A stretch of 64,000 bases of DNA from positions 1,674,001 to 1,738,000 of the forward strand of contig NZ_CP015820.1 in NCBI RefSeq assembly GCF_002007485.1. Direction: 5' to 3'. Both the position numbers and the translations under genes were made by a program. The stretch comes from Ditibartonella apihabitans (GTDB taxonomy: Bacteria > Pseudomonadota > Alphaproteobacteria > Rhizobiales > Rhizobiaceae). The notes under the pieces are model-generated. The model ran no database searches. It had not been told where the DNA came from and worked only from the letters and a program-made list of their open reading frames with translations. Every line of letters starts with the position of its first letter. The first letter of the stretch is position 1. Below, one piece after another: positions 192 to 64,000 of the stretch.

Positions 192-1943
192 CTAGTCATT
201 GAACGACGTTTCAGGCAATTTCTGATTGCCGGAAGACGCAAGTACAGGAGCATATTCTTCTTTAAAGTCCGGCCTTACACCAAGGAAAGTTGCAGACCGG
301 TGAATGATCTTTTCAACCATCGGGGCTGCGTTAAAACCGGCAGTCGCGCCGAACTTTCCTTCTTCCGCCTTGGGTTCGTCAATAATTGTCAAAACAACAT
401 ATTGCGGGTCGTCAATCGGGAAAGACGCAAGGAAGGCGTTAAACCGTTTGGTTTTTGAATATTTGCCGTTTTCGACTTTTTCGGCAGTACCGGTTTTTCC
501 ACCAACACGATAACCTTCAACCTTGGCTCTGCGCCCCGAACCGATATCTCCATTCAATTTATAAAGATAACGCATGTCACGGCTCGTTTCCGGTGAAACA
601 ACCTGTTTGGAGTGTTCTTCCGCCTCCTCGGCTGTGCGTTTTAAAAATGTCGGTTCGATAAGCTTGCCGCCATTCATCAAGGCGCTTGCGCCGACCGCGG
701 TTTGCAATGGCGTTGTCATCATGCCGTGGCCAAAAGCAATGGTCATGGAATTGACAGTTTTCCAACGTCTCGGCTCAACCGGACGGGCAACTTCGGGAAG
801 TTCTGTCGTCATACGGTCAAGAAGCCCCATTCTTTTTAAAAATTCGCGGTGCCCGTCAATGCCGATTGTCAGTGCTTCTTTTGCCGAACCGATATTGGAA
901 GAAAAGATGAAAATTTCCCAAGCTGTTAACGGACGATATTTACCGTGGAAGTCACGGATGAAATGTCCACGTCCGGCAGCAAGCGGCTTTGACGCGTCAA
1001 TCACGCTATTCAACTGGAATTTTCCCGAATCGAGCGCCATTGCGGTGGTAAAACTTTTAATTGTCGACCCCATTTCGAAAGTACCGGCTGTCATCCGGTT
1101 GAGGCGATCTTTTTTAAGTGCATCGACCGGATTGTTGGGATCGAAATCGGGCATGGAAGCCATGGCTAGCACTTCACCGGTGTGGATATTGATAACCACC
1201 GCACCGGCGGCAATTGCCTGATATCTTTGCATAGCGTCTGCCAATACATCACGCATAATGGCCTGAACACGGATATCGATTGAAAGTTTTACCGGTTCAA
1301 GTGACGTTTCGTCGGCAAGTCCGGCTGCACGCAAATCGCTTAAACCCGCATTGTCGATATATTTTTCCATTCCTGCCGTGCCCTGATTGTCGACATTGAC
1401 CATGCCGAGAATATGGGAAGCTGTTGGCCCACCGGGATAGAAGCGGCGCACCTCTGTGCGAAACCCGACACCGGGAATACCAAGAGCCATAATCTGCTCT
1501 TTCTGACTTGGCGTGAGCCCGCGCTGAATCCACGCAAAACCGGTTTTCTTTTTAAGTTTTTTATAGGTTTCCTGCCAATCGAGATTGGGTAGAACCGTTG
1601 AAATCAATTCGATTGTTTCATCCACATCAATGATGCGGCGCGGTTCGGCAAAAAGCGAATAGGTTTTCAAATCGGTTGCAAGAAGCCGCCCGTTACGGTC
1701 AAGAATATCTGGACGGGCTGCCGATTGCTCGACTGCAGGGCCGGAGGCTTCTTCAATCTCGCCGCCTTTGATACCAAAATAGATAAGCCGGGCAAAAATC
1801 ACCGCATAAACGCATAAGAAACAGCTCACCACCACCATGAGGCGGCGGCGGGTTCTGCGTGAACGATATTCGGCCTTTTGCAACTCTTCATAACGATTGA
1901 GAGGTGCCTTCGGTTTACGCTTCAAAAACGGAATAAACTTCAT
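192..1943 (-). CDS. ftsI: FtsI / PBP3, septal peptidoglycan transpeptidase
   Basis: 583 residues, normal for the family. A basic cytoplasmic N-terminus is followed by one membrane anchor at about residues 35-57, then the periplasmic PBP dimerisation domain and the transpeptidase domain. The active-site motifs are all visible: SxxK as STIK at 293-296, SSN at 348-350 and KTG at 483-485. The enzyme cross-links septal murein during division. Its ATG overlaps the ftsL stop by 4 bp (ATGA), indicating translational coupling in the dcw operon. A long open frame on the opposite strand here is only a shadow. Confidence 0.97.
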   Translation of the reverse strand: MKFIPFLKRKPKAPLNRYEELQKAEYRSRRTRRRLMVVVSCFLCVYAVIFARLIYFGIKGGEIEEASGPAVEQSAARPDILDRNGRLLATDLKTYSLFAEPRRIIDVDETIELISTVLPNLDWQETYKKLKKKTGFAWIQRGLTPSQKEQIMALGIPGVGFRTEVRRFYPGGPTASHILGMVNVDNQGTAGMEKYIDNAGLSDLRAAGLADETSLEPVKLSIDIRVQAIMRDVLADAMQRYQAIAAGAVVINIHTGEVLAMASMPDFDPNNPVDALKKDRLNRMTAGTFEMGSTIKSFTTAMALDSGKFQLNSVIDASKPLAAGRGHFIRDFHGKYRPLTAWEIFIFSSNIGSAKEALTIGIDGHREFLKRMGLLDRMTTELPEVARPVEPRRWKTVNSMTIAFGHGMMTTPLQTAVGASALMNGGKLIEPTFLKRTAEEAEEHSKQVVSPETSRDMRYLYKLNGDIGSGRRAKVEGYRVGGKTGTAEKVENGKYSKTKRFNAFLASFPIDDPQYVVLTIIDEPKAEEGKFGATAGFNAAPMVEKIIHRSATFLGVRPDFKEEYAPVLASSGNQKLPETSFND

Positions 1944-2347
1944 GGCCGGACACTTCCTGTTGCGATATTATCGATATTCGCGTTGCCGTTGCGGGCAAGT
2001 AGCGAATTTTTTTCTTCAAGCTCGTCATCCTTAATGAGATTTTCGATCTGGTCTGGCAGCCGTTCCGGTATATCCTGCAACTTGATAATCTGGCGGGGTT
2101 CGGTTACCTGCAATCCGAGTTGGTCCTGATAACGGGTGGCCAATACCTGCATACGTTCTGGCTCTATCATCATTGCCCATTCGGCATGTAGCAAATTGAT
2201 GGTATTTTTTTCGGCAACAATTTGTCGTTCGATACGCTGGACTTCGCCAATGCGTTTCAGCGCGTCGTACTTCACCTTGTAGGTGATACCGGCTGCACAA
2301 ATCATAATGGCCACCAAAATCATATCAAATGTACGAAAAACTGTCAT
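1940..2347 (-). CDS. ftsL: FtsL-like bitopic division protein
   Basis: 135 residues: a very short cytoplasmic N-terminus, one hydrophobic span at about 8-24, then a coiled-coil-like periplasmic segment (about 25-70) rich in K, R, E and Q. FtsL has weak sequence conservation, so the call rests mainly on topology, size and position between rsmH and ftsI. It overlaps both neighbours by 4 bp, giving a tightly coupled rsmH-ftsL-ftsI unit. Its expected role is to scaffold the FtsQLB divisome complex. The tail beyond about residue 100 is polar and probably disordered. Confidence 0.88.
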
Positions 2348-3357
2348 TTTCTATTACCATCATTTCGGGCATCAAATCGGGCTAGTTCAGGAAGACCGAA
2401 TATTGATTTATCAAGAGGTGCTATGTCGGCATCCGTGCGAATACCAAAACGGAAACGCGCAGAGCGTGAACGGGGATTGGTTTCAAGCTCCGCTTCATCT
2501 GCGGTAATTCCGCTTTTGACTTTAAGAGTGAATGTCGGCTTTTCTGTTTCTTGAACCGGCAAATAGCGCGATTGCGCGCGCGCTTTTGACCGGAGAGCGA
2601 AAAACTTTTTGACCATGCGGTCTTCAAGTGAATGGAAGGTTACAACACCAAGCCGCCCGCCGGGTTTCAAAACCGCTTCGCCAGCTTCAAGCGCTTTGGC
2701 CAATTCCTGAAGCTCGTCATTAACGTAAATGCGCAAGGCCTGAAAAATTCTTGTTGCCGGATGGATATGCTCGCCGGGTTTGCGCCCCACCAATGTCTCG
2801 ACAGCATCTGCAAGATCAGAGGTACGCAAAAACGGTTTTTTCTCGCGTCTTTCGACAATCATTCGGGCAATACGGGCCGCATGGCGTTCTTCCCCGAGAA
2901 GACCGAAAATGCGCGTAAGGTCATTTACCTTCATGGTGTTCACGACATCGGCTGCACTGAAACCTTTTTCCGACATACGCATGTCAAGCGGCCCGTCTTT
3001 CTGGAACGAGAAACCGCGCTCTGCCTCGTCAATCTGCATGGAGGAAACGCCGATGTCGAGAATAACGCCGTCAACTTTATCGTCTGTCACGTGGCCGAGA
3101 TTGGAAAATTCTGTATGAACGAGTTTCAATCGTGGACGATATTCTTCAACCAGAGCTTCGCCGTCACGGATCGCTTCAGGATCCCGATCAAGTGCAATGA
3201 CATTGGCTCCTTTATCAAGGAGTGCACGCGAATAGCCCCCCGCACCAAAGGTACCGTCGATAATTGTTTTACCGGCGCAAGCATCCATTCCCGCAAGAAC
3301 AGGTTCAAGTAAAACAGGGATATGACGTTTAAAATCGGTATCCTTAACAGTTGGCAT
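2344..3357 (-). CDS. rsmH: RsmH (MraW), 16S rRNA m4C1402 methyltransferase
   Basis: 337 residues. The N-terminus has [10 protein letters not shown], followed by the SAM-binding motif [14 protein letters not shown] (about 34-47). A conserved [10 protein letters not shown] segment and the late [12 protein letters not shown] motif are diagnostic of RsmH. The enzyme N4-methylates C1402 of 16S rRNA at the ribosomal P site. It is the promoter-proximal gene of the visible dcw segment. No mraZ gene precedes it here; the next gene upstream is mntH. Confidence 0.97.
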
Positions 3358-4833: not shown

Positions 4834-4927
4834 TCTAACGATCTATCCGTCAATCGGGGTCATATAAAAATATTTGTGAATTCTATATTTGTGATTTCTA
4901 TAAAGGTAAAAAACGCAAAAGGAAAAT

Positions 4928-5320
4928 GTCAGTTGGTCTATAAGCCGGGTTCTGTATGGCGAAATTTGATTAAAAATTCCGCGTGACAGCCATTCATCTG
5001 GTACGGATGTTACCACCCGTCTCGTGCAACCTACCCGAATGACAGGCCCGGAAATCGGCTGCAAGCAAAGCTTGCGTGTCATTCCTATTCGGTCTTGCTC
5101 CCGGTGGGGTTTACCTTGCCACATCCATTACTGGATGCGCGGTGGGCTCTTACCCCGCCTTTTCACCCTTACCTGCATGAACAGGCGGTATATTTCTGTG
5201 GCACTTTCCCTGAGGTTACCCTCGCCGGACGTTATCCGGCACCGTTATTCCATGGAGCCCGGACTTTCCTCACCTTTCACCTTTCGGTATTGAGAAGGCG
5301 CGGCTGCCCGACCAACTGAC
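4928..5320 (-). ncRNA. rnpB: RNase P RNA, class A
   Basis: The catalytic RNA of RNase P, which trims tRNA 5' ends. Read on the minus strand, the 5' end GTCAGTTGGTC (5320-5310) is the exact complement of GACCAACTGAC at the 3' end (4938-4928), forming helix P1. Inside lie conserved blocks, including GAGGAAAGTCCGGGCTCC early and AACCCGGCTTATAGACC near the 3' end. The length of about 393 nt fits alphaproteobacterial RNase P RNA. Small open frames across this stretch are not genes. Confidence 0.95.
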
Positions 5321-57012: not shown

Positions 57013-57693
57013 TTCTTCTCACTCCTTTTGCACGTTTGTGATGTTCCCATCAAGAACGAGAGTCAAGGATTTCATAATCAAATATGAAGAGAGTCACCGG
57101 CTTTTAAAATCGGAGTTTTTAAGACCGGTTTTTGAACTATTAGAGCTTTGCTCCGATCTACCTGTGAAGCACACTAATTGAGACTTTTCTCGCCTATAAC
57201 AAAATTTATTTTGTTTTTTAAAAAACGCCGCCTAACCCAAAACTTTCGGCATTTGAGAGCGTAAAAAAAAATGGGTAGAACAGCAAATTTGCCTAATAAA
57301 AATGTTCAGATATATCAACCGGAACTGACGGAATAAAACGAAAAACCGTCCCTCTATTTACCCATGAGACTATATCGCCACCTTTAACAAAATTTTTTAT
57401 AAGAAATTTGTTTGTCGTGAAGGTCTATAGGCGATGAAACGGTGCATTAAACTGGCGTCGGATACCAGCAATAATAAAATTTGGACTTTTATGGCTAGGC
57501 TGGAACCTTATCACCTAAAGCAAAACTCAATCTGATTAAAAATACTAAGCTATAAAAATTCGGCATCAAAATCCTCACTTAAAACTAACACCTTTCATTT
57601 TTCATGCTTATGCCGTTTGTAACTCATAGCTCCATTCACAAGAACGAAGTTTTCTAGCCAGTCTCGGCCAAACATTAAAATATTGAGAGATAA
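57013..57693. other. Intergenic stretch downstream of the methyltransferase-helicase-nuclease operon
   Basis: About 680 bp with no supported gene; several imperfect T-rich repeats near 57105-57150 (TTTTTAAGACCGGTTTTTG). No tRNA or direct repeat that would mark an integration end was found. Confidence 0.4.
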
Positions 57694-58884
57694 CTAATCT
57701 TCTTCGTCTATTAGCTTCAAGCGTCCTTCTTGAGGCTCATATTCATAATTCGGCAAAGACTTATCTCTAATCTTCTCTATCACTTCATCTATGATAGGCA
57801 ATGGTACCAAAAACCATTCTCTCGGGTAGATGGCTTTTCCAAAACGGTCAATAATTTTTGCATCAAATTGAGCCTTACGAAAAACCCTATGCAATAGTTT
57901 TTCTGTCTTTGTTCGACTGATATTATAAAGTTCATAGGTCGCTACAATCTCAACATCGTCCATTAGATAAGTCGGATCATGTTTAGCATCAGCTATCCGC
58001 TTCTCGACCGAACCACCTGTTACGCCGATTTTGTGGATCATATTGCGGTTTTGCTTAATCAACGGAAACTGAGAATTTGAACGCAAAACATAAATCGTCC
58101 CACTTGCAAGATCATCAGCTTCAATCTCGCCACTAAACAGTGGCCCAGCCTCCGGTTCGGTTATACGGCGTGAAGTCTCATCTCTGTAAAGAGCACGTTG
58201 CAATGAACGAAGTAAAAGATCACTTTCTGTTTCATTGGAAAATATCACGCGTGAGCGACGATCCGGGCGTCCATATTCAGTGATGAAAGGCTTACCAAGC
58301 TCTGCGACATATGCTAATTGCCCATAAAGAATAAAAAAAATCTCCTTTGCGGATTTCTGCATCTCGTTGAAAGGGTCTTGTTTTCGCACAGCATTTGCCA
58401 AATCTCTTTGTACGGCATCAAAAAGCGGCTTAAACTCACCAAAATCGGCAACCGGCTTACGGCTTGCAATTTCTTCAGGCTGTGTTTTTTCCGCGTATGG
58501 GCGAACATAGCGTAGATTTTCAATACTATCTTCAGATGGTGGTTCAACGCCAAGCTCAGTCAATAAAGCATCATCATCAAGTTTTATTGTTTCTATTTTC
58601 TCAAAGGATGTTTCATCCAAAAGGTGATACTCATCAAAGGGAAGCAAAAACTCACGCCAATGAGCATCCTCGCATAGCCTGTCTAGTCGAACAGCATAGA
58701 GCCGTTCAAATATGTCGTTTTGTTCTCCATGACGCGGTACGCGCCCATGTTCATCAAAAAAACGTACAATATCTTCAAAGCCGGCAATCACCCGCTCTTC
58801 TACAGCACTATATGTTTTTTGTTTGTCTTCTTCCCTTTCAACCCCTAGAGCTGCAAGAAGTTCATCATCAGAGAGTTTATTCAT
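57694..58884 (-). CDS. T5orf172/GIY-YIG-like nuclease protein of a restriction-type operon
   Basis: 396 residues. The C-terminal domain (about 258-372) is GIY-YIG-like in the T5orf172 manner: GTIYVL (262-267), HKIG (284-287), then GGSVEKRIAD with Arg296, Glu328 in TEKLLHRVF and His332, closing with REWF. These are the expected catalytic Tyr/Lys-Tyr/Arg/Glu positions. Residues 4-16 (LSDDELLAALGVE) and 102-114 (LDDDALLTELGVE) are an internal repeat. Residues 41-72 resemble the C-terminal tail of the helicase. It overlaps the helicase stop by 1 bp (TGATG). Probable DNA endonuclease of the system. Confidence 0.82.
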   Translation of the reverse strand: MNKLSDDELLAALGVEREEDKQKTYSAVEERVIAGFEDIVRFFDEHGRVPRHGEQNDIFERLYAVRLDRLCEDAHWREFLLPFDEYHLLDETSFEKIETIKLDDDALLTELGVEPPSEDSIENLRYVRPYAEKTQPEEIASRKPVADFGEFKPLFDAVQRDLANAVRKQDPFNEMQKSAKEIFFILYGQLAYVAELGKPFITEYGRPDRRSRVIFSNETESDLLLRSLQRALYRDETSRRITEPEAGPLFSGEIEADDLASGTIYVLRSNSQFPLIKQNRNMIHKIGVTGGSVEKRIADAKHDPTYLMDDVEIVATYELYNISRTKTEKLLHRVFRKAQFDAKIIDRFGKAIYPREWFLVPLPIIDEVIEKIRDKSLPNYEYEPQEGRLKLIDEED

Positions 58885-60938
58885 CAGCTTTTTGCCTTAT
58901 TTCTGGCGAGCCAGGCAACACCCTCGGCCATGCGCTTTTCCCACGGGTCTTGCGCTGTTATACTTGGCAAACGGCCTCTTTCCTCCTTGAATTTCAAGGC
59001 ACGTTCTGCCAAAGCGCGTGCGTCATCATAAGTTAAATTGATTTTCTTGGCCGCAACAATCTCAGACACGGTCTTCAAAGTTTTTTCATTCATGGTCTTG
59101 GATAAAATAGCATAAGCTTCCTCAAACGGGTTGATATGGTCGATGAGGTCAATATCGAGATTCCGGACATCAAGCACATATTTACGCACGCCGTCAACGA
59201 ATGCAGTATTAGCGGGCAGGTCATTTGCTGCCCCAGTCTGCTCGGCAATATGTTTCTTGCTTTGCTGGACGAGATTGAACGCTGCTATAGCAGCTTGCCG
59301 GATAGCCTCCTGATCTTCTGGATCCTCATTTGGATAACGATCTTTGACAATTTTTCCCATCCGTCCGATCGTCAATTCTTCCGGTATAATATCATTATTA
59401 AACAGTCCTTGACCGATTGCCGTCTTATCGGCAACGAAATCGGCAATAAGCTCGTTTAAATCTTCTGCAACGATGCGCTTTGCTTCAGGACTTTTGGGTT
59501 CAATTAAACCGTTGAGTTCAATATGAAACTGACCGGAAGATTCGTTAAAGCCGACATTAGGCTTATCGGTACTGTAACCATCTTCACCATAATCGAACCC
59601 TTCAATTGGCCCCTTTTGCTTTGCGGTAAAATTGAAGCGTGGTGCCAAAACTTGTTCCATCAACAATGAAAGCGCAATGGCTTTTATAGTGTCATTGACC
59701 GCCTCATGCACTTGTTCGTCAGCAGCATCCGGTTGTGCGATAAGGTTGGTAAAACGAGCTTTGCTTTTTCCAGGTGCGTCGCGAGTGGCGCGACCAATAA
59801 TTTGCACAACCTCTGTCAGGCTCGAGCGATAGCCAACTGTCAAAGCATGTTCACACCATATCCAGTCGAAACCTTCCTTGGCCATGCCCAAAGCAATAAT
59901 AATGTCGACATAATCGCGGTTATTCGTTTGTTCGGGATTTTTTAATGAGGAAACAACGAGGTTGCGCTTTAAAGGATCATCATCAACCAGATCGGCTATT
60001 TTTAAAATGCGACCATCAGGCCGTTTAACTAGTTGAAAGCCTGTCTTTTCATCCACGCCAAGCCATGTCCCAAGCGCTGTCAAAATATCTTCAACCTCAG
60101 TATTTTTGCCTCGCTTGGTGCTTTCTCGCGAATTAACATTGGGAATATGGACAATCGTTTTCTCATCCGGATTCAGAACATCCATAATCGCATCAAGATA
60201 GCCATTCGTATAAAAATAATAGCCAAGATCAAGCTCTTTCAAATATTCATAGCCGTTTAGCTGTTCGTAATAAGTATACGTAACAGAAGCAAATTTTTCT
60301 TCGTCTTCAGGCGAGAGCACCGGTACTGAATCACCCCGAAAATATGAGCCCGTCATAGCCACCAAATGCGCACTGTCACGGGCAATCAATTCGCGTAATT
60401 GCGCACCCAACCGGTTGTTTTCACTGTCTGCCGAAACGTGGTGGAATTCGTCAATGGCAATCATACAATTGTCAAAAGCAGCAACACCTTCATTGTCAAA
60501 AGCAAAACGAAATGTCGCATGTGTGCAGATGAGAATCCTATCTTCACTTTCCAAAAATTCGCCGACTGCTTTAACCTTGGATGTCGATGTTTCAGAACCC
60601 GACGCATTGCAAAGGTTCCATCGCGGCTCTACGACCCAGTCGGTGAAAAAGCCATATTTAGACAAAGGCTGATTTGCAAAAGACCCGCCTATGGAACGCT
60701 CTGGCACACAGATGATGGCTTTTTTGATACCTTGATTATAAAGTTTGTCGAGAGCGATAAACATCAAAGCGCGGGATTTACCAGATGCGGGGGGCGATTT
60801 GATGAGCAAATATTGTTCTCCACGCATGTTATAGGCACGCTCCTGCATGGGTAGCATGCCAAATTCATTGGCTTTTTTGGAAATGCCATTATGCGCCATG
60901 CGCACCTGTACGGCGGGTACAAATTTTTTGGCATCCAT
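58884..60938 (-). CDS. SF2 DEAD/DEAH-type helicase of a restriction-type operon
   Basis: 684 residues from ATG 60938 (GGGGAG upstream). Motif I SPPASGKS (48-55), motif II DEFHH (163-167), motif III MTGS (195-198), and motif VI VVQIIGRATRD (378-387) are visible, so both RecA-like lobes are present. Residues about 390-640 form a helical extension. The last 40 residues (FKEERGRLPSITAQDPWEKR) resemble a helicase-associated module. No nuclease is fused. It lies 105 bp after the methyltransferase and is coupled to the nuclease gene. Likely an ATP-driven translocase on DNA. Confidence 0.88.
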   Translation of the reverse strand: MDAKKFVPAVQVRMAHNGISKKANEFGMLPMQERAYNMRGEQYLLIKSPPASGKSRALMFIALDKLYNQGIKKAIICVPERSIGGSFANQPLSKYGFFTDWVVEPRWNLCNASGSETSTSKVKAVGEFLESEDRILICTHATFRFAFDNEGVAAFDNCMIAIDEFHHVSADSENNRLGAQLRELIARDSAHLVAMTGSYFRGDSVPVLSPEDEEKFASVTYTYYEQLNGYEYLKELDLGYYFYTNGYLDAIMDVLNPDEKTIVHIPNVNSRESTKRGKNTEVEDILTALGTWLGVDEKTGFQLVKRPDGRILKIADLVDDDPLKRNLVVSSLKNPEQTNNRDYVDIIIALGMAKEGFDWIWCEHALTVGYRSSLTEVVQIIGRATRDAPGKSKARFTNLIAQPDAADEQVHEAVNDTIKAIALSLLMEQVLAPRFNFTAKQKGPIEGFDYGEDGYSTDKPNVGFNESSGQFHIELNGLIEPKSPEAKRIVAEDLNELIADFVADKTAIGQGLFNNDIIPEELTIGRMGKIVKDRYPNEDPEDQEAIRQAAIAAFNLVQQSKKHIAEQTGAANDLPANTAFVDGVRKYVLDVRNLDIDLIDHINPFEEAYAILSKTMNEKTLKTVSEIVAAKKINLTYDDARALAERALKFKEERGRLPSITAQDPWEKRMAEGVAWLARNKAKS

Positions 60939-61043
60939 TATAAAGCTCCCCTATTTATGAAATATATTCCAAAACACTTAGCACCTTTCATAATATGAAA
61001 GTGTGGATCAACTTTTATAACAAAAACATAATGCATGAACATT

Positions 61044-63794
61044 TCAATGTTTTAGTTTTTTCGTCATTGTTGTGTACATTTCAAACAGTTTTTCCAACCG
61101 TTCGGTGTCGTTTTTAAAGCGCCGGCCAATATAAATGCGTTCCAAAATTTCATCATTGCGGTCATGCGCTCTGCGCAGGTCATCCGGCATAGTCTCCGGA
61201 TTATAAAGGTCAGCAATGGTTGCAGGAAAATGGGCCTCGCGCGCCAGCAAAATATCTTCTGCTGCTTTTGTCAAATCTGCCTTGTTTTGCTTTGTCAATT
61301 CTGGCACGGGAAAGGTATTCCAGCCAAGTGTATTGGAGTAAGAAAAATCCGTTCTCATTCGCACACAAACTGTGCCAATCCATACCCAATGCAAGCGTGA
61401 TGCTATCAGCGCCATATTCCATAATGGCGCATCATAAAGTGCGAAGTTTCTGTCGCCAATTATAATATTACTTTGAACAAGCCCTATAGGGAGGTAATCC
61501 CTGTGTTCCGAACTGACACGTGGAACAATTATAGAACTTTTTACTGCTTTTTTATGTCCTTGAAATCTATGGGGATTTTTAGCTAATAAATGAGCGCTCG
61601 GGTTACTGCTAGCCAAGCGTGTCTTTTCGACACATGAAATTCGCTTCTTAATTTCTTTAACCTGCAAAGCGTCACTTAACTGATTATCGGGAATCCAAAT
61701 ACAATATTTTAATTCACCTCTTATAAACTCTGATGAACCATAAAATGGATAAATAAATTTCTTACATCTGGCGTCTTTTAGTTGAAGTTCTTCAACTTGT
61801 TGTGTGGACAACAATAAATAGCCGCCGTCATAGGGTTTATTGCCATAATCCATAATACTCAAATTAGATAATGGTTTTGATCTCTTTTCCACAATCACAT
61901 TACCTGCCGCTACGAGATAAGCGTTGATATGCGGCACTTGACGGGCAATGGGCGTGCCATCGGTACTTTCTTCGTAAAGCATAGGTTGACGCTTATTTTT
62001 TTCGGCAAGCCCCACAATTACTACCGTAACACCGGCATTGTGGCTGGCAAGGTTAGACCATTTGAAGGATGTATAGGCAAAGGCAATTTCGCGCCCTTCC
62101 TTAAACAAAAGTGGCCATAAAATAGGCACCTGTTGCCCTTGACAGATAGAATTGGTCGACACAAAGGCACTTTGTGTCTCACTATGTTTTGCATAATCGG
62201 CCGCTTTTAAAAACCAACATGCAACATAATCTAAAGATTTCCAATTTTTTGCGCGAGCACCAAAAATGGCTTTCATATCTGCCTTTTGTTCTGCGGATTG
62301 CCATGTGCTGCCAACATAAGGCGGGTTGCCGCAAATATAGGTTTCACCACCTTCATTTTCAAAATTAATCTGTGGTTGTTCCAATGGTGTTTTAAATAAA
62401 TCATCACCTCGCAATTTCACAGTGGTACCGGTGGATGGGCAAACGCTTAACCAATCCACCCGCAGTGCATTGGCACAAGTGATCCAGTTTTGGGCATCAA
62501 GTGGCAAAAACTCTGCTAAAGCCAACTTCTGCCCACGGTAGAGCACATCACATTGATATTCAGCAATAATCAGCGCCAAACGTGCCACTTCGGCCGGAAA
62601 ATCAAGCAATTCAATGCCACGAAAATTGGTAAGCGGTATTTGGCTTTTGCGCCCGCTTTCATCGCGCCTTCTATTAATTTCGGCCTCTATTTCACGCATT
62701 TGTTTATAAGCAATCACTAAAAAGTTGCCCGACCCACAGGCCGGGTCGAAGACGCGAATGCGCGCTATACGATTACGCAAATTCAACAATTTTCGTGAAT
62801 TATCACCTGCCTCCTGCAATTTTTCCCGCAGGTCATCCAAAAATAGTGGGTTCAACACTTTTAGTATACTAGGCACCGATGTGTAATGCATGCCCAAATG
62901 ACTACGTTCACCCTCTTCAGCAATGGCCTGCACCATTGAACCAAAAATATCAGGATTAATCCTTTGCCAATCAAGATTTCCTGCCGCTATTAGATATGAT
63001 CGGGCAATGCGCGAAAAATGCGGGACTTCAAGATTGCCCGCAAAAAGCCCGCCATTAACATAGGGAAACACGTTGGCAAAAGGTGCAACATGTTCGGTTT
63101 TTCTCTCACTAATCTTGATGTTCATCGCTTCAAATATTTTTTGAATGATGACATGCGTGTCAGACGAATCCCTGGCGCTCATCTGTTGGACTGAATTGGT
63201 AAAAAGCCCGCTACCATTAAAAATATCCGTATCTTCGGCAAAAAAACAAAAGATCAGCCGCGCCATAAAATGGTTTAAGTCATGCCGACGGGCATCCGTG
63301 CCCCAATCAGGGTTATCTTTCAACAGTTCAATATAAAGCTTGTTAAGGCGACCAGTTGCTTTCACGTCAATAGGGTTATTCTTGATTTCCTTCAGAGTGG
63401 AAATACCGGCAAGCCCTAAAAAAAAGCCAAAATGGTCAGCCAATTCTTGAAAGTTACCAACAACGATTTCGCTCGACGTCAAATCCTCAGCGTTAAAGGT
63501 GTCACCGTCTGTAGCAAGTATGAATTTAACTTTGCCCGCAATGGTTTTAGGGCTTTGTTTTAGCGCTTGAAACGCGGCTTCCACTTCACCGTTATTGGCT
63601 GTTGCAATATGGATATTGTTGCGTTGTAAAACACCGTTTTCCACATCGGAACTGTTGGTTGAACCACTGCGCAATTTTTTAATCGTGGTTTCCTTATTGC
63701 CGAAGGCTTCAAGAAAAGAAAAAGCAAACTCTTCCCTGTCGAATGGTGCTTGTGACAGCTCTTCAACTGCTTGTTCAATTTCAACGGGGTTCAT
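61044..63794 (-). CDS. MmeI-class adenine-specific DNA methyltransferase without nuclease domain
   Basis: 916 residues. The MmeI-like N-terminal and spacer regions occupy about 1-300 (FAFSFLEAFGNKETTIKKLR, HFGFFLGLAGIS). HLGMHYTSVPSILKVLNPLF leads to SAM motif I FDPACGSGNF (349-358) and the amino-MTase motif NPPY (490-493). A target-recognition domain (about 620-820) and a C-terminal helical end follow. In MmeI itself an N-terminal PD-(D/E)XK nuclease with an ExK motif is present; none is seen here. It probably makes N6-methyladenine and identifies self DNA. First gene of the three-gene operon. Confidence 0.9.
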   Translation of the reverse strand: MNPVEIEQAVEELSQAPFDREEFAFSFLEAFGNKETTIKKLRSGSTNSSDVENGVLQRNNIHIATANNGEVEAAFQALKQSPKTIAGKVKFILATDGDTFNAEDLTSSEIVVGNFQELADHFGFFLGLAGISTLKEIKNNPIDVKATGRLNKLYIELLKDNPDWGTDARRHDLNHFMARLIFCFFAEDTDIFNGSGLFTNSVQQMSARDSSDTHVIIQKIFEAMNIKISERKTEHVAPFANVFPYVNGGLFAGNLEVPHFSRIARSYLIAAGNLDWQRINPDIFGSMVQAIAEEGERSHLGMHYTSVPSILKVLNPLFLDDLREKLQEAGDNSRKLLNLRNRIARIRVFDPACGSGNFLVIAYKQMREIEAEINRRRDESGRKSQIPLTNFRGIELLDFPAEVARLALIIAEYQCDVLYRGQKLALAEFLPLDAQNWITCANALRVDWLSVCPSTGTTVKLRGDDLFKTPLEQPQINFENEGGETYICGNPPYVGSTWQSAEQKADMKAIFGARAKNWKSLDYVACWFLKAADYAKHSETQSAFVSTNSICQGQQVPILWPLLFKEGREIAFAYTSFKWSNLASHNAGVTVVIVGLAEKNKRQPMLYEESTDGTPIARQVPHINAYLVAAGNVIVEKRSKPLSNLSIMDYGNKPYDGGYLLLSTQQVEELQLKDARCKKFIYPFYGSSEFIRGELKYCIWIPDNQLSDALQVKEIKKRISCVEKTRLASSNPSAHLLAKNPHRFQGHKKAVKSSIIVPRVSSEHRDYLPIGLVQSNIIIGDRNFALYDAPLWNMALIASRLHWVWIGTVCVRMRTDFSYSNTLGWNTFPVPELTKQNKADLTKAAEDILLAREAHFPATIADLYNPETMPDDLRRAHDRNDEILERIYIGRRFKNDTERLEKLFEMYTTMTKKLKH

Positions 63795-64000
63795 TCAACT
63801 AACTCTTCTTATCTACTCAAACGCGTCTTCTACAGTTTGCGGGATGTAGCAATTTCTTACCACAATAATCTATATTATTAACGCCCGTAGATAGCGGCAT
63901 ATTGACATTTTTGTAAATGGAAATCCTGAGTAATTCTATTTCAAGCTCTACGCTTTCCAAAAATGCTAAATGTCATTTCTCTTCTGGCAATGGCAATAAG
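63795..64000. other. Upstream region of the methyltransferase operon
   Basis: About 200 bp without a gene up to the window edge; must contain the operon promoter. No operator or repeat was identified. Confidence 0.4.

Follow-up and report, generated by a model that had tools for sequence, protein, structure and literature searches.

The question raised by the locus studied here is whether three adjacent genes, encoding a DNA methyltransferase, a superfamily 2 (SF2) helicase and a protein with a GIY-YIG-like domain, form a defence system and, if so, of what kind. The genes lie together near the end of a stretch of 64,000 nucleotides from Ditibartonella apihabitans (contig NZ_CP015820.1, positions 1,674,001 to 1,738,000), referred to below as the window. 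The original prediction took them for a defence system that might be undescribed. This novelty does not hold, as the literature already names such a system: domains and gene order match those published for DnmA(YeeA)-YeeB-YeeC of Bacillus subtilis (PMC7261158, PMC9973331). On its predicted content, the locus is a further member of the DnmA-YeeB-YeeC kind, with a likely Type I-like mechanism, and the mechanism guessed in the original prediction is close to the published proposal. Beyond the published triad, we describe a mutual exclusion between nuclease residues and helicase, a set of invariant residues, a site of insertion at a tRNA-Met gene and a slot for cargo genes.

B. subtilis DnmA (YeeA) is an MmeI-like enzyme without endonuclease motif which methylates GACGAG, and its gene is followed by yeeB, encoding a helicase, and yeeC, encoding a T5orf172 protein (PMC7261158, PMC9973331). 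In the published work 368 neighbourhoods of the triad were analysed; the first notice of the triad, together with the Type I-like hypothesis, is credited there to Morgan 2009 and the link to defence islands to Makarova 2011 (via PMC7261158, PMC9973331). The window carries the same arrangement, with an MmeI-type methyltransferase lacking the PD-ExK motif, an SF2 helicase gene as its immediate downstream neighbour in the same orientation and a T5orf172/GIY-YIG gene straight after it. A plasmid record gives the name YeeB to a helicase 65.1% identical to that of the window and, as a control of the profile search, B. subtilis matches the MmeI_Mtase family. No biochemical study of the trio was found in the literature searched, whose coverage leaves out most subscription journals and bioRxiv.

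The three open reading frames (ORFs) are as originally predicted and Pfam confirms their assignment, with the NPPY motif at residue 490 of the methyltransferase and an overlap of one base between the helicase stop and the GIY-YIG start (TGATG). The gap between methyltransferase and helicase is 105 bp and both are presumably carried on a common transcript. Promoter-like matches in the triad region were not above those of shuffled sequences (11 versus a mean of 13.9) and the terminator scan of the region gave 9 versus 7.4 in shuffles. Among named matches, the best for the GIY-YIG protein comes from Bartonella apis (94% identity), and the organism probably belongs to that clade of Bartonella. The genome search, over a single contig of 2.60 Mb, found the helicase only once, so a second copy of the triad was discarded.

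The methyltransferase has the complete domain set of MmeI: MmeI_N (109 bits), MmeI_hel, MmeI_Mtase (399.8 bits), MmeI_TRD and MmeI_C. Methyltransferase and target-recognition domain (residues 631-833) are thus present in one chain, as expected of a type IIL enzyme, and the protein aligns with the MmeI structure 5hr4 (E-value 1.2e-140), although only from residue 90 onwards. A type IIL enzyme should, in addition, cut by a PD-ExK site at the N-terminus of that chain, and this is missing: in the alignment columns which read D, E and K in nuclease-bearing relatives, the window methyltransferase has none of the three.

How general this is was assessed with 207 methyltransferase loci, comprising that of the window, 2 from its genus, 20 from a phylum sample, 24 from a class sample, 80 genome contigs (the best 80 of 545 relatives) and 80 viral contigs (the best 80 of 197, near copies included). 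Nuclease residues were scored as present where D, E and K, with Q allowed for E, occupy the columns of D65, E75 and K77 of locus L071. The residues are absent and a helicase is present in 128 loci, and not a single locus has both. The residues occur without helicase in 44 loci with room downstream and in 10 without such room. The remainder are one locus with neither residues nor helicase despite room downstream (L159), 17 without residues and with less than 2.5 kb downstream, one of which (L202) has no readable N-terminus, and 7 whose N-terminus is missing. One locus, L279, was scored as having the residues since its true N-terminus carries them, its ORF beginning 940 residues early. After removal of copies at 97% identity the numbers are 126 (helicase only), 0 (both), 42 and 9 (residues only, with and without room), 1, 17 and 6. 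In L159, the methyltransferase (434-3004) has an altered, shortened C-terminus and is followed by unrelated genes, with no helicase in the 9.9 kb downstream; it may be a decayed copy.

In a tree of 130 methyltransferases, from which the first 150 residues were omitted, all 79 rows without residues fall on one side of a single branch (support of 99 in the Shimodaira-Hasegawa-like approximate likelihood ratio test), which argues that the nuclease switch happened once. The helicase state needs two changes on this tree, which offers one independent pair for the association of nuclease and helicase states. This points to an old and stable association which, being that of one clade, is not statistically independent evidence.

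The genes themselves are tightly linked. The helicase gene is downstream of the methyltransferase gene on the same strand in all 128 loci, and the junction between helicase and GIY-YIG genes measures at most 20 bp, on one strand and mostly as an overlap, in all 123 loci which include a GIY-YIG gene. Of the other five loci, four stop close to the helicase, and the last (L218) has a short helicase followed by an ORF which, by eye, is transposase-like. The adjacency implied by the original prediction was also checked in 299 Pseudomonadota genomes, where co-occurrence is above chance. The helicase is found in 16, always with an adjacent GIY-YIG gene (16/16). In 15/16 the same strand also encodes an MmeI-type methyltransferase at a distance, hit to hit, of no more than about 8.3 kb; the 16th (G195) starts at a contig end. 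Two further genomes have a GIY-YIG match and no helicase match: one is near a contig start (G168) and the other is weak, with an internal stop (G131).

The helicase is recognised by the Pfam DEAD profile (30.7 bits, cut-off 26) and carries a Walker A motif at residues 49-55 (PPASGKS), DEFHH at 163-167 and QIIGRATR at 379-386. The residues of these predicted motifs are invariant across the aligned relatives (alignments of 17 and 38), and the motor domain of the predicted model resembles SF2 helicases in a structure match. The GIY-YIG protein matches MUG113 (54.6 bits) and T5orf172 (45.6 bits). Its residues Y265, K285, R296 and E328 are invariant in all aligned relatives, even those only 27-36% identical; they supply the Tyr, second Tyr or Lys, Arg and Glu expected of a GIY-YIG nuclease, Lys replacing the second Tyr of the active site as in R.Hpy188I. 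Among solved structures, no relative was found for the helicase at E <= 0.01 or for the GIY-YIG protein at E <= 1, and Foldseek with the whole GIY-YIG protein gave nothing at E <= 0.001, with weak eIF5A/EF-P-like matches to its middle only. This middle portion, residues 163-244 (window 58153-58398), precedes the GIY-YIG domain and is predicted to form a small beta-barrel with weak EF-P/eIF5A, CarD and Tudor-like matches. The idea that the nuclease has been replaced by a separate translocase and a GIY-YIG protein fits these data as far as the loss of D..ExK from an MmeI_N-bearing methyltransferase and the invariance of the GIY-YIG residues are concerned.

Divergence among related copies is uneven along the methyltransferase. 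Identity is 52-58% over residues 601-800 (window 61395-61994), which are mostly target-recognition domain, versus 70-93% over residues 1-600; it is likewise low (56-62%) from residue 901 on. The diverged target-recognition region suggests a turnover of sequence specificity. In a comparison of three related copies (the window, G356 and G354), the ratio of nonsynonymous to synonymous substitutions (dN/dS) of the window copy against the other two is 0.06-0.11 for the methyltransferase and 0.04-0.05 for the helicase, the two genes which the ratios cover, with dS above 1 and saturating. These low values speak against decay. The GIY-YIG proteins of the three copies are 61-67% identical and all nine ORFs are open.

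The distribution of the triad is wide. Three of 71 genomes of the genus, including the source genome, have the helicase, and record titles place relatives in Pseudomonadota, Acidobacteria, Bacteroidota, Bacillota, Cyanobacteria, Verrucomicrobia and Planctomycetes. No helicase match reaches 80% coverage in 50,697 phage records; IMG/VR contigs carry the helicase, and 152 plasmid records contain most of it. The flanks of the window triad align with sister genomes as far as about 57160, and the alignment resumes at 64284-64442, by a tRNA-Met gene (Table 1). This site was compared in six located sister genomes and G356, the located G323 and G363 being left out. It is occupied by a triad in G356, by a SIR2-HerA pair in G340 (PADLOC, 315 and 642 bits), by a 372-amino-acid acyltransferase ORF in G341, G342 and G301 (Pfam basis: G341), by about 260 bp in G358 and by about 0.7 kb in G355, whose left flank is poorly aligned. 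That this position can be taken by SIR2-HerA, a known defence system, supports a defence role without proving one. Across Bartonella-like genomes, the contents of the tRNA-Met-linked site alternate by species (window 57160-64000, L302 4718-7556, L300 13500-14618, L303 4300-4620, L078 13179-19285). The G+C content of the triad (about 0.40-0.45) is similar to that of its flanks, and base composition lends no support to horizontal acquisition. Elsewhere in the window, the sole Rfam match at gathering score is a class A RNase P RNA (4925-5319, minus strand).

Table 1. Features of the triad locus, in window coordinates
Feature	Position	Strand	Basis
MmeI-type (DnmA/YeeA-like) adenine DNA methyltransferase, 916 aa	61044..63794	minus	Pfam, 5hr4 alignment, PADLOC
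YeeB-like SF2 helicase/translocase, 684 aa	58884..60938	minus	Pfam DEAD, motifs, predicted model
YeeC-like GIY-YIG (T5orf172/MUG113) protein, 396 aa	57694..58884	minus	Pfam
MmeI_N domain, methyltransferase residues 1-160, without PD-ExK residues	63315..63794	minus	Pfam, alignment
GIY-YIG domain, residues 262-373: Y265, K285-I-G287, R296, E328, H332	57766..58101	minus	
Accessory segment with triad alone	57160..64000, beyond window end to about 64284-64442		Synteny breaks versus sister species, tRNA scan
tRNA-Met adjoining accessory segment	64446-64522 (continued coordinates, past window end)		tRNA scan

Taken together, these features make it probable that the triad is a split, Type I-like restriction-modification system of the DnmA-YeeB-YeeC kind. 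The gene order, the missing PD-ExK residues and the intact predicted helicase and GIY-YIG motifs are the part of this explanation which is established at the level of sequence. The methyltransferase would use its target-recognition domain to read one asymmetric site and would methylate one adenine per site, marking host DNA. At an unmethylated site it would recruit the coupled helicase-GIY-YIG pair; the helicase would move along the DNA with ATP and the GIY-YIG domain would cut. A target-recognition domain can be recognised in the methyltransferase alone, so all three proteins should be required for cutting. As such an enzyme can mark an asymmetric site on one strand only, cutting is further expected to need two unmarked sites in opposite orientation. 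This two-site arrangement is also needed for cutting by Type III and Type ISP enzymes. Foreign DNA without the mark, for instance that of phages, would be blocked in this way. We count in favour of split restriction the gene content and order shared with DnmA-YeeB-YeeC, the mutual exclusion of nuclease residues and helicase, the inseparable helicase and GIY-YIG genes, the invariant GIY-YIG residues, the low dN/dS, the diverged target-recognition region and SIR2-HerA at the same site. To these can be added observations on Vibrio crassostreae, in which deleting the dnmA or yeeB homologues reportedly increased sensitivity to some phages (Piel, cited in PMC9973331).

The apparent inactivity of the B. 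subtilis system raises the question of whether the window triad is instead a restriction relic, with a methyltransferase active as an orphan regulator and helicase and GIY-YIG genes which no longer restrict, as was concluded for B. subtilis. In B. subtilis, loss of dnmA causes no growth defect and leaves plasmid transformation unchanged, the DnmA motif is not depleted in phage genomes, single-gene deletions leave killing or plaquing by three phages unchanged, and methylation affects gene expression (PMC7261158, PMC9973331). That B. subtilis tolerates yeeB and yeeC without dnmA would fit a methyltransferase-dependent cutting complex and a dead system as well. B. subtilis YeeB and YeeC are described as lacking C-terminal stretches which the V. 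crassostreae copies have (PMC9973331). For the window triad, the open ORFs of the three related copies, the low methyltransferase and helicase ratios (bearing in mind the saturating dS) and the intact helicase motifs and GIY-YIG residues make a relic unlikely. A well-conserved copy outside B. subtilis, such as this one, could decide between a working defence and a relic.

It is also rather improbable that the triad provides a methylation-linked defence without cutting, closer to BREX than to restriction, where the helicase would block or unwind unmarked phage DNA and the GIY-YIG-like domain would merely bind or nick it. PMC9973331 regards T5orf172 as mostly uncharacterised, its predicted roles being in DNA binding, and the beta-barrel-like residues 163-244 of the GIY-YIG protein are in keeping with this; against it, the catalytic-type residues are invariant even in the most distant relatives aligned. 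Finally, an ordinary type IIL or IIG enzyme cutting alone beside two unrelated neighbours, as implied by its PADLOC label (REase_MTase_IIG, 968 bits), was rejected as extremely improbable on the missing PD-ExK residues, and neither the conservation of the neighbours in 128 loci nor the lack of endonuclease activity reported for DnmA, an enzyme of the same kind (PMC7261158), agrees with it.

Split restriction may not be the only activity encoded at such loci. The gap between methyltransferase and helicase is at least 300 bp in 57/128 loci, or 53 once four broken methyltransferases (L068, L132, L271 and L288) are removed, and it can contain additional genes, for example in L097 (12793-13803), L100 (4939-6012), L090 (12748-14064), L151 (12781-14472) and L062 (3747-10797). 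Cargo genes are never found between the helicase and GIY-YIG genes. Slot ORFs on the same strand and of at least 100 amino acids number 95, of which 93 were scanned, 7 of these coming from three of the loci with a broken methyltransferase. Among the matches listed are RhuM (9; PADLOC candidate PDC-S05), SLFN_AlbA_2 (6), DUF1016_N (4) and PDDEXK_4 (3), with single cases of Mrr, PIN, Uma2, FRG and reverse transcriptase; two of the 93 are pieces of methyltransferase. Matched stretches on the far side of the GIY-YIG gene (87 of 90 ORFs scanned) gave phage integrase as the most frequent Pfam family among the matches listed (4/87), along with single matches to the defence genes SIR2, DRT, HamA and AbiE amid housekeeping genes. 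Certain families thus recur in the slot, and no overall enrichment is claimed. We tentatively propose that the triad is a restriction chassis whose methyltransferase-helicase junction could act as a swap site for changing DNA- or RNA-attacking effectors (RhuM, Schlafen-AlbA, DUF1016/YhcG and other PD-(D/E)XK, Mrr and PIN nucleases, reverse transcriptase). These would serve as a second line of defence should restriction fail, and the helicase-GIY-YIG pair would remain locked together. In the window copy the slot is empty.

These observations bear on annotation. A check of the triad against a defence database, PADLOC 2.0.0, agrees with the original prediction in that the triad is not named there: only the methyltransferase has a strong model, the window helicase reaches at most 22.9 bits and the window GIY-YIG protein has no match. 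Among relatives, 17 helicases have weak PbeA or Cas3 matches. Although the triad is widespread, a commonly used defence library recognises none of it beyond the methyltransferase, which it reports as a complete type IIG enzyme; genomes carrying the triad may then be credited with a one-gene restriction enzyme unable to cut by the known route. In the window, the type IIG model labels 61044-63794 a full restriction enzyme despite the missing nuclease residues, and type IIG systems may be overcounted in this way. The clear-cut division of these methyltransferases into nuclease-bearing and helicase-linked forms also makes the old proposal of a Type I-like derivative of MmeI testable, by reconstitution with three genes.

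Compared with known systems, the triad is closest to that of B. subtilis, likened here by its published description: both encode an MmeI-type methyltransferase without nuclease motif, an SF2 helicase and a T5orf172/GIY-YIG protein in this order on one strand, while the window triad is found in another organism and at a tRNA-Met site. MmeI itself (type IIL, PDB 5hr4) has the same methyltransferase, spacer, target-recognition and C-terminal domains, but cuts by its own N-terminal PD-ExK domain, whereas the window enzyme lacks those residues and is accompanied by two further genes. Type I systems such as EcoR124I (HsdR/M/S) include a separate HsdS and an HsdR with its own nuclease; the accessory segment carries the triad alone, with no such domain on the three proteins, and recognition lies within the methyltransferase, the nuclease being encoded by a separate GIY-YIG gene in place of a PD-ExK domain carried by the motor. 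Type ISP enzymes, LlaGI for example, are single polypeptides with their own PD-ExK nuclease; one-strand methylation and ATP-driven translocation would be common to both, but the triad is split over three genes. DISARM and BREX also pair a methyltransferase with a helicase or ATPase partner, but in PADLOC the window methyltransferase matches their DrmMI and PglX models far less well than REase_MTase_IIG, and no model for DrmA/B/C or for PglZ and its partners is among the matches of the three triad proteins and a YrbL-like neighbour.

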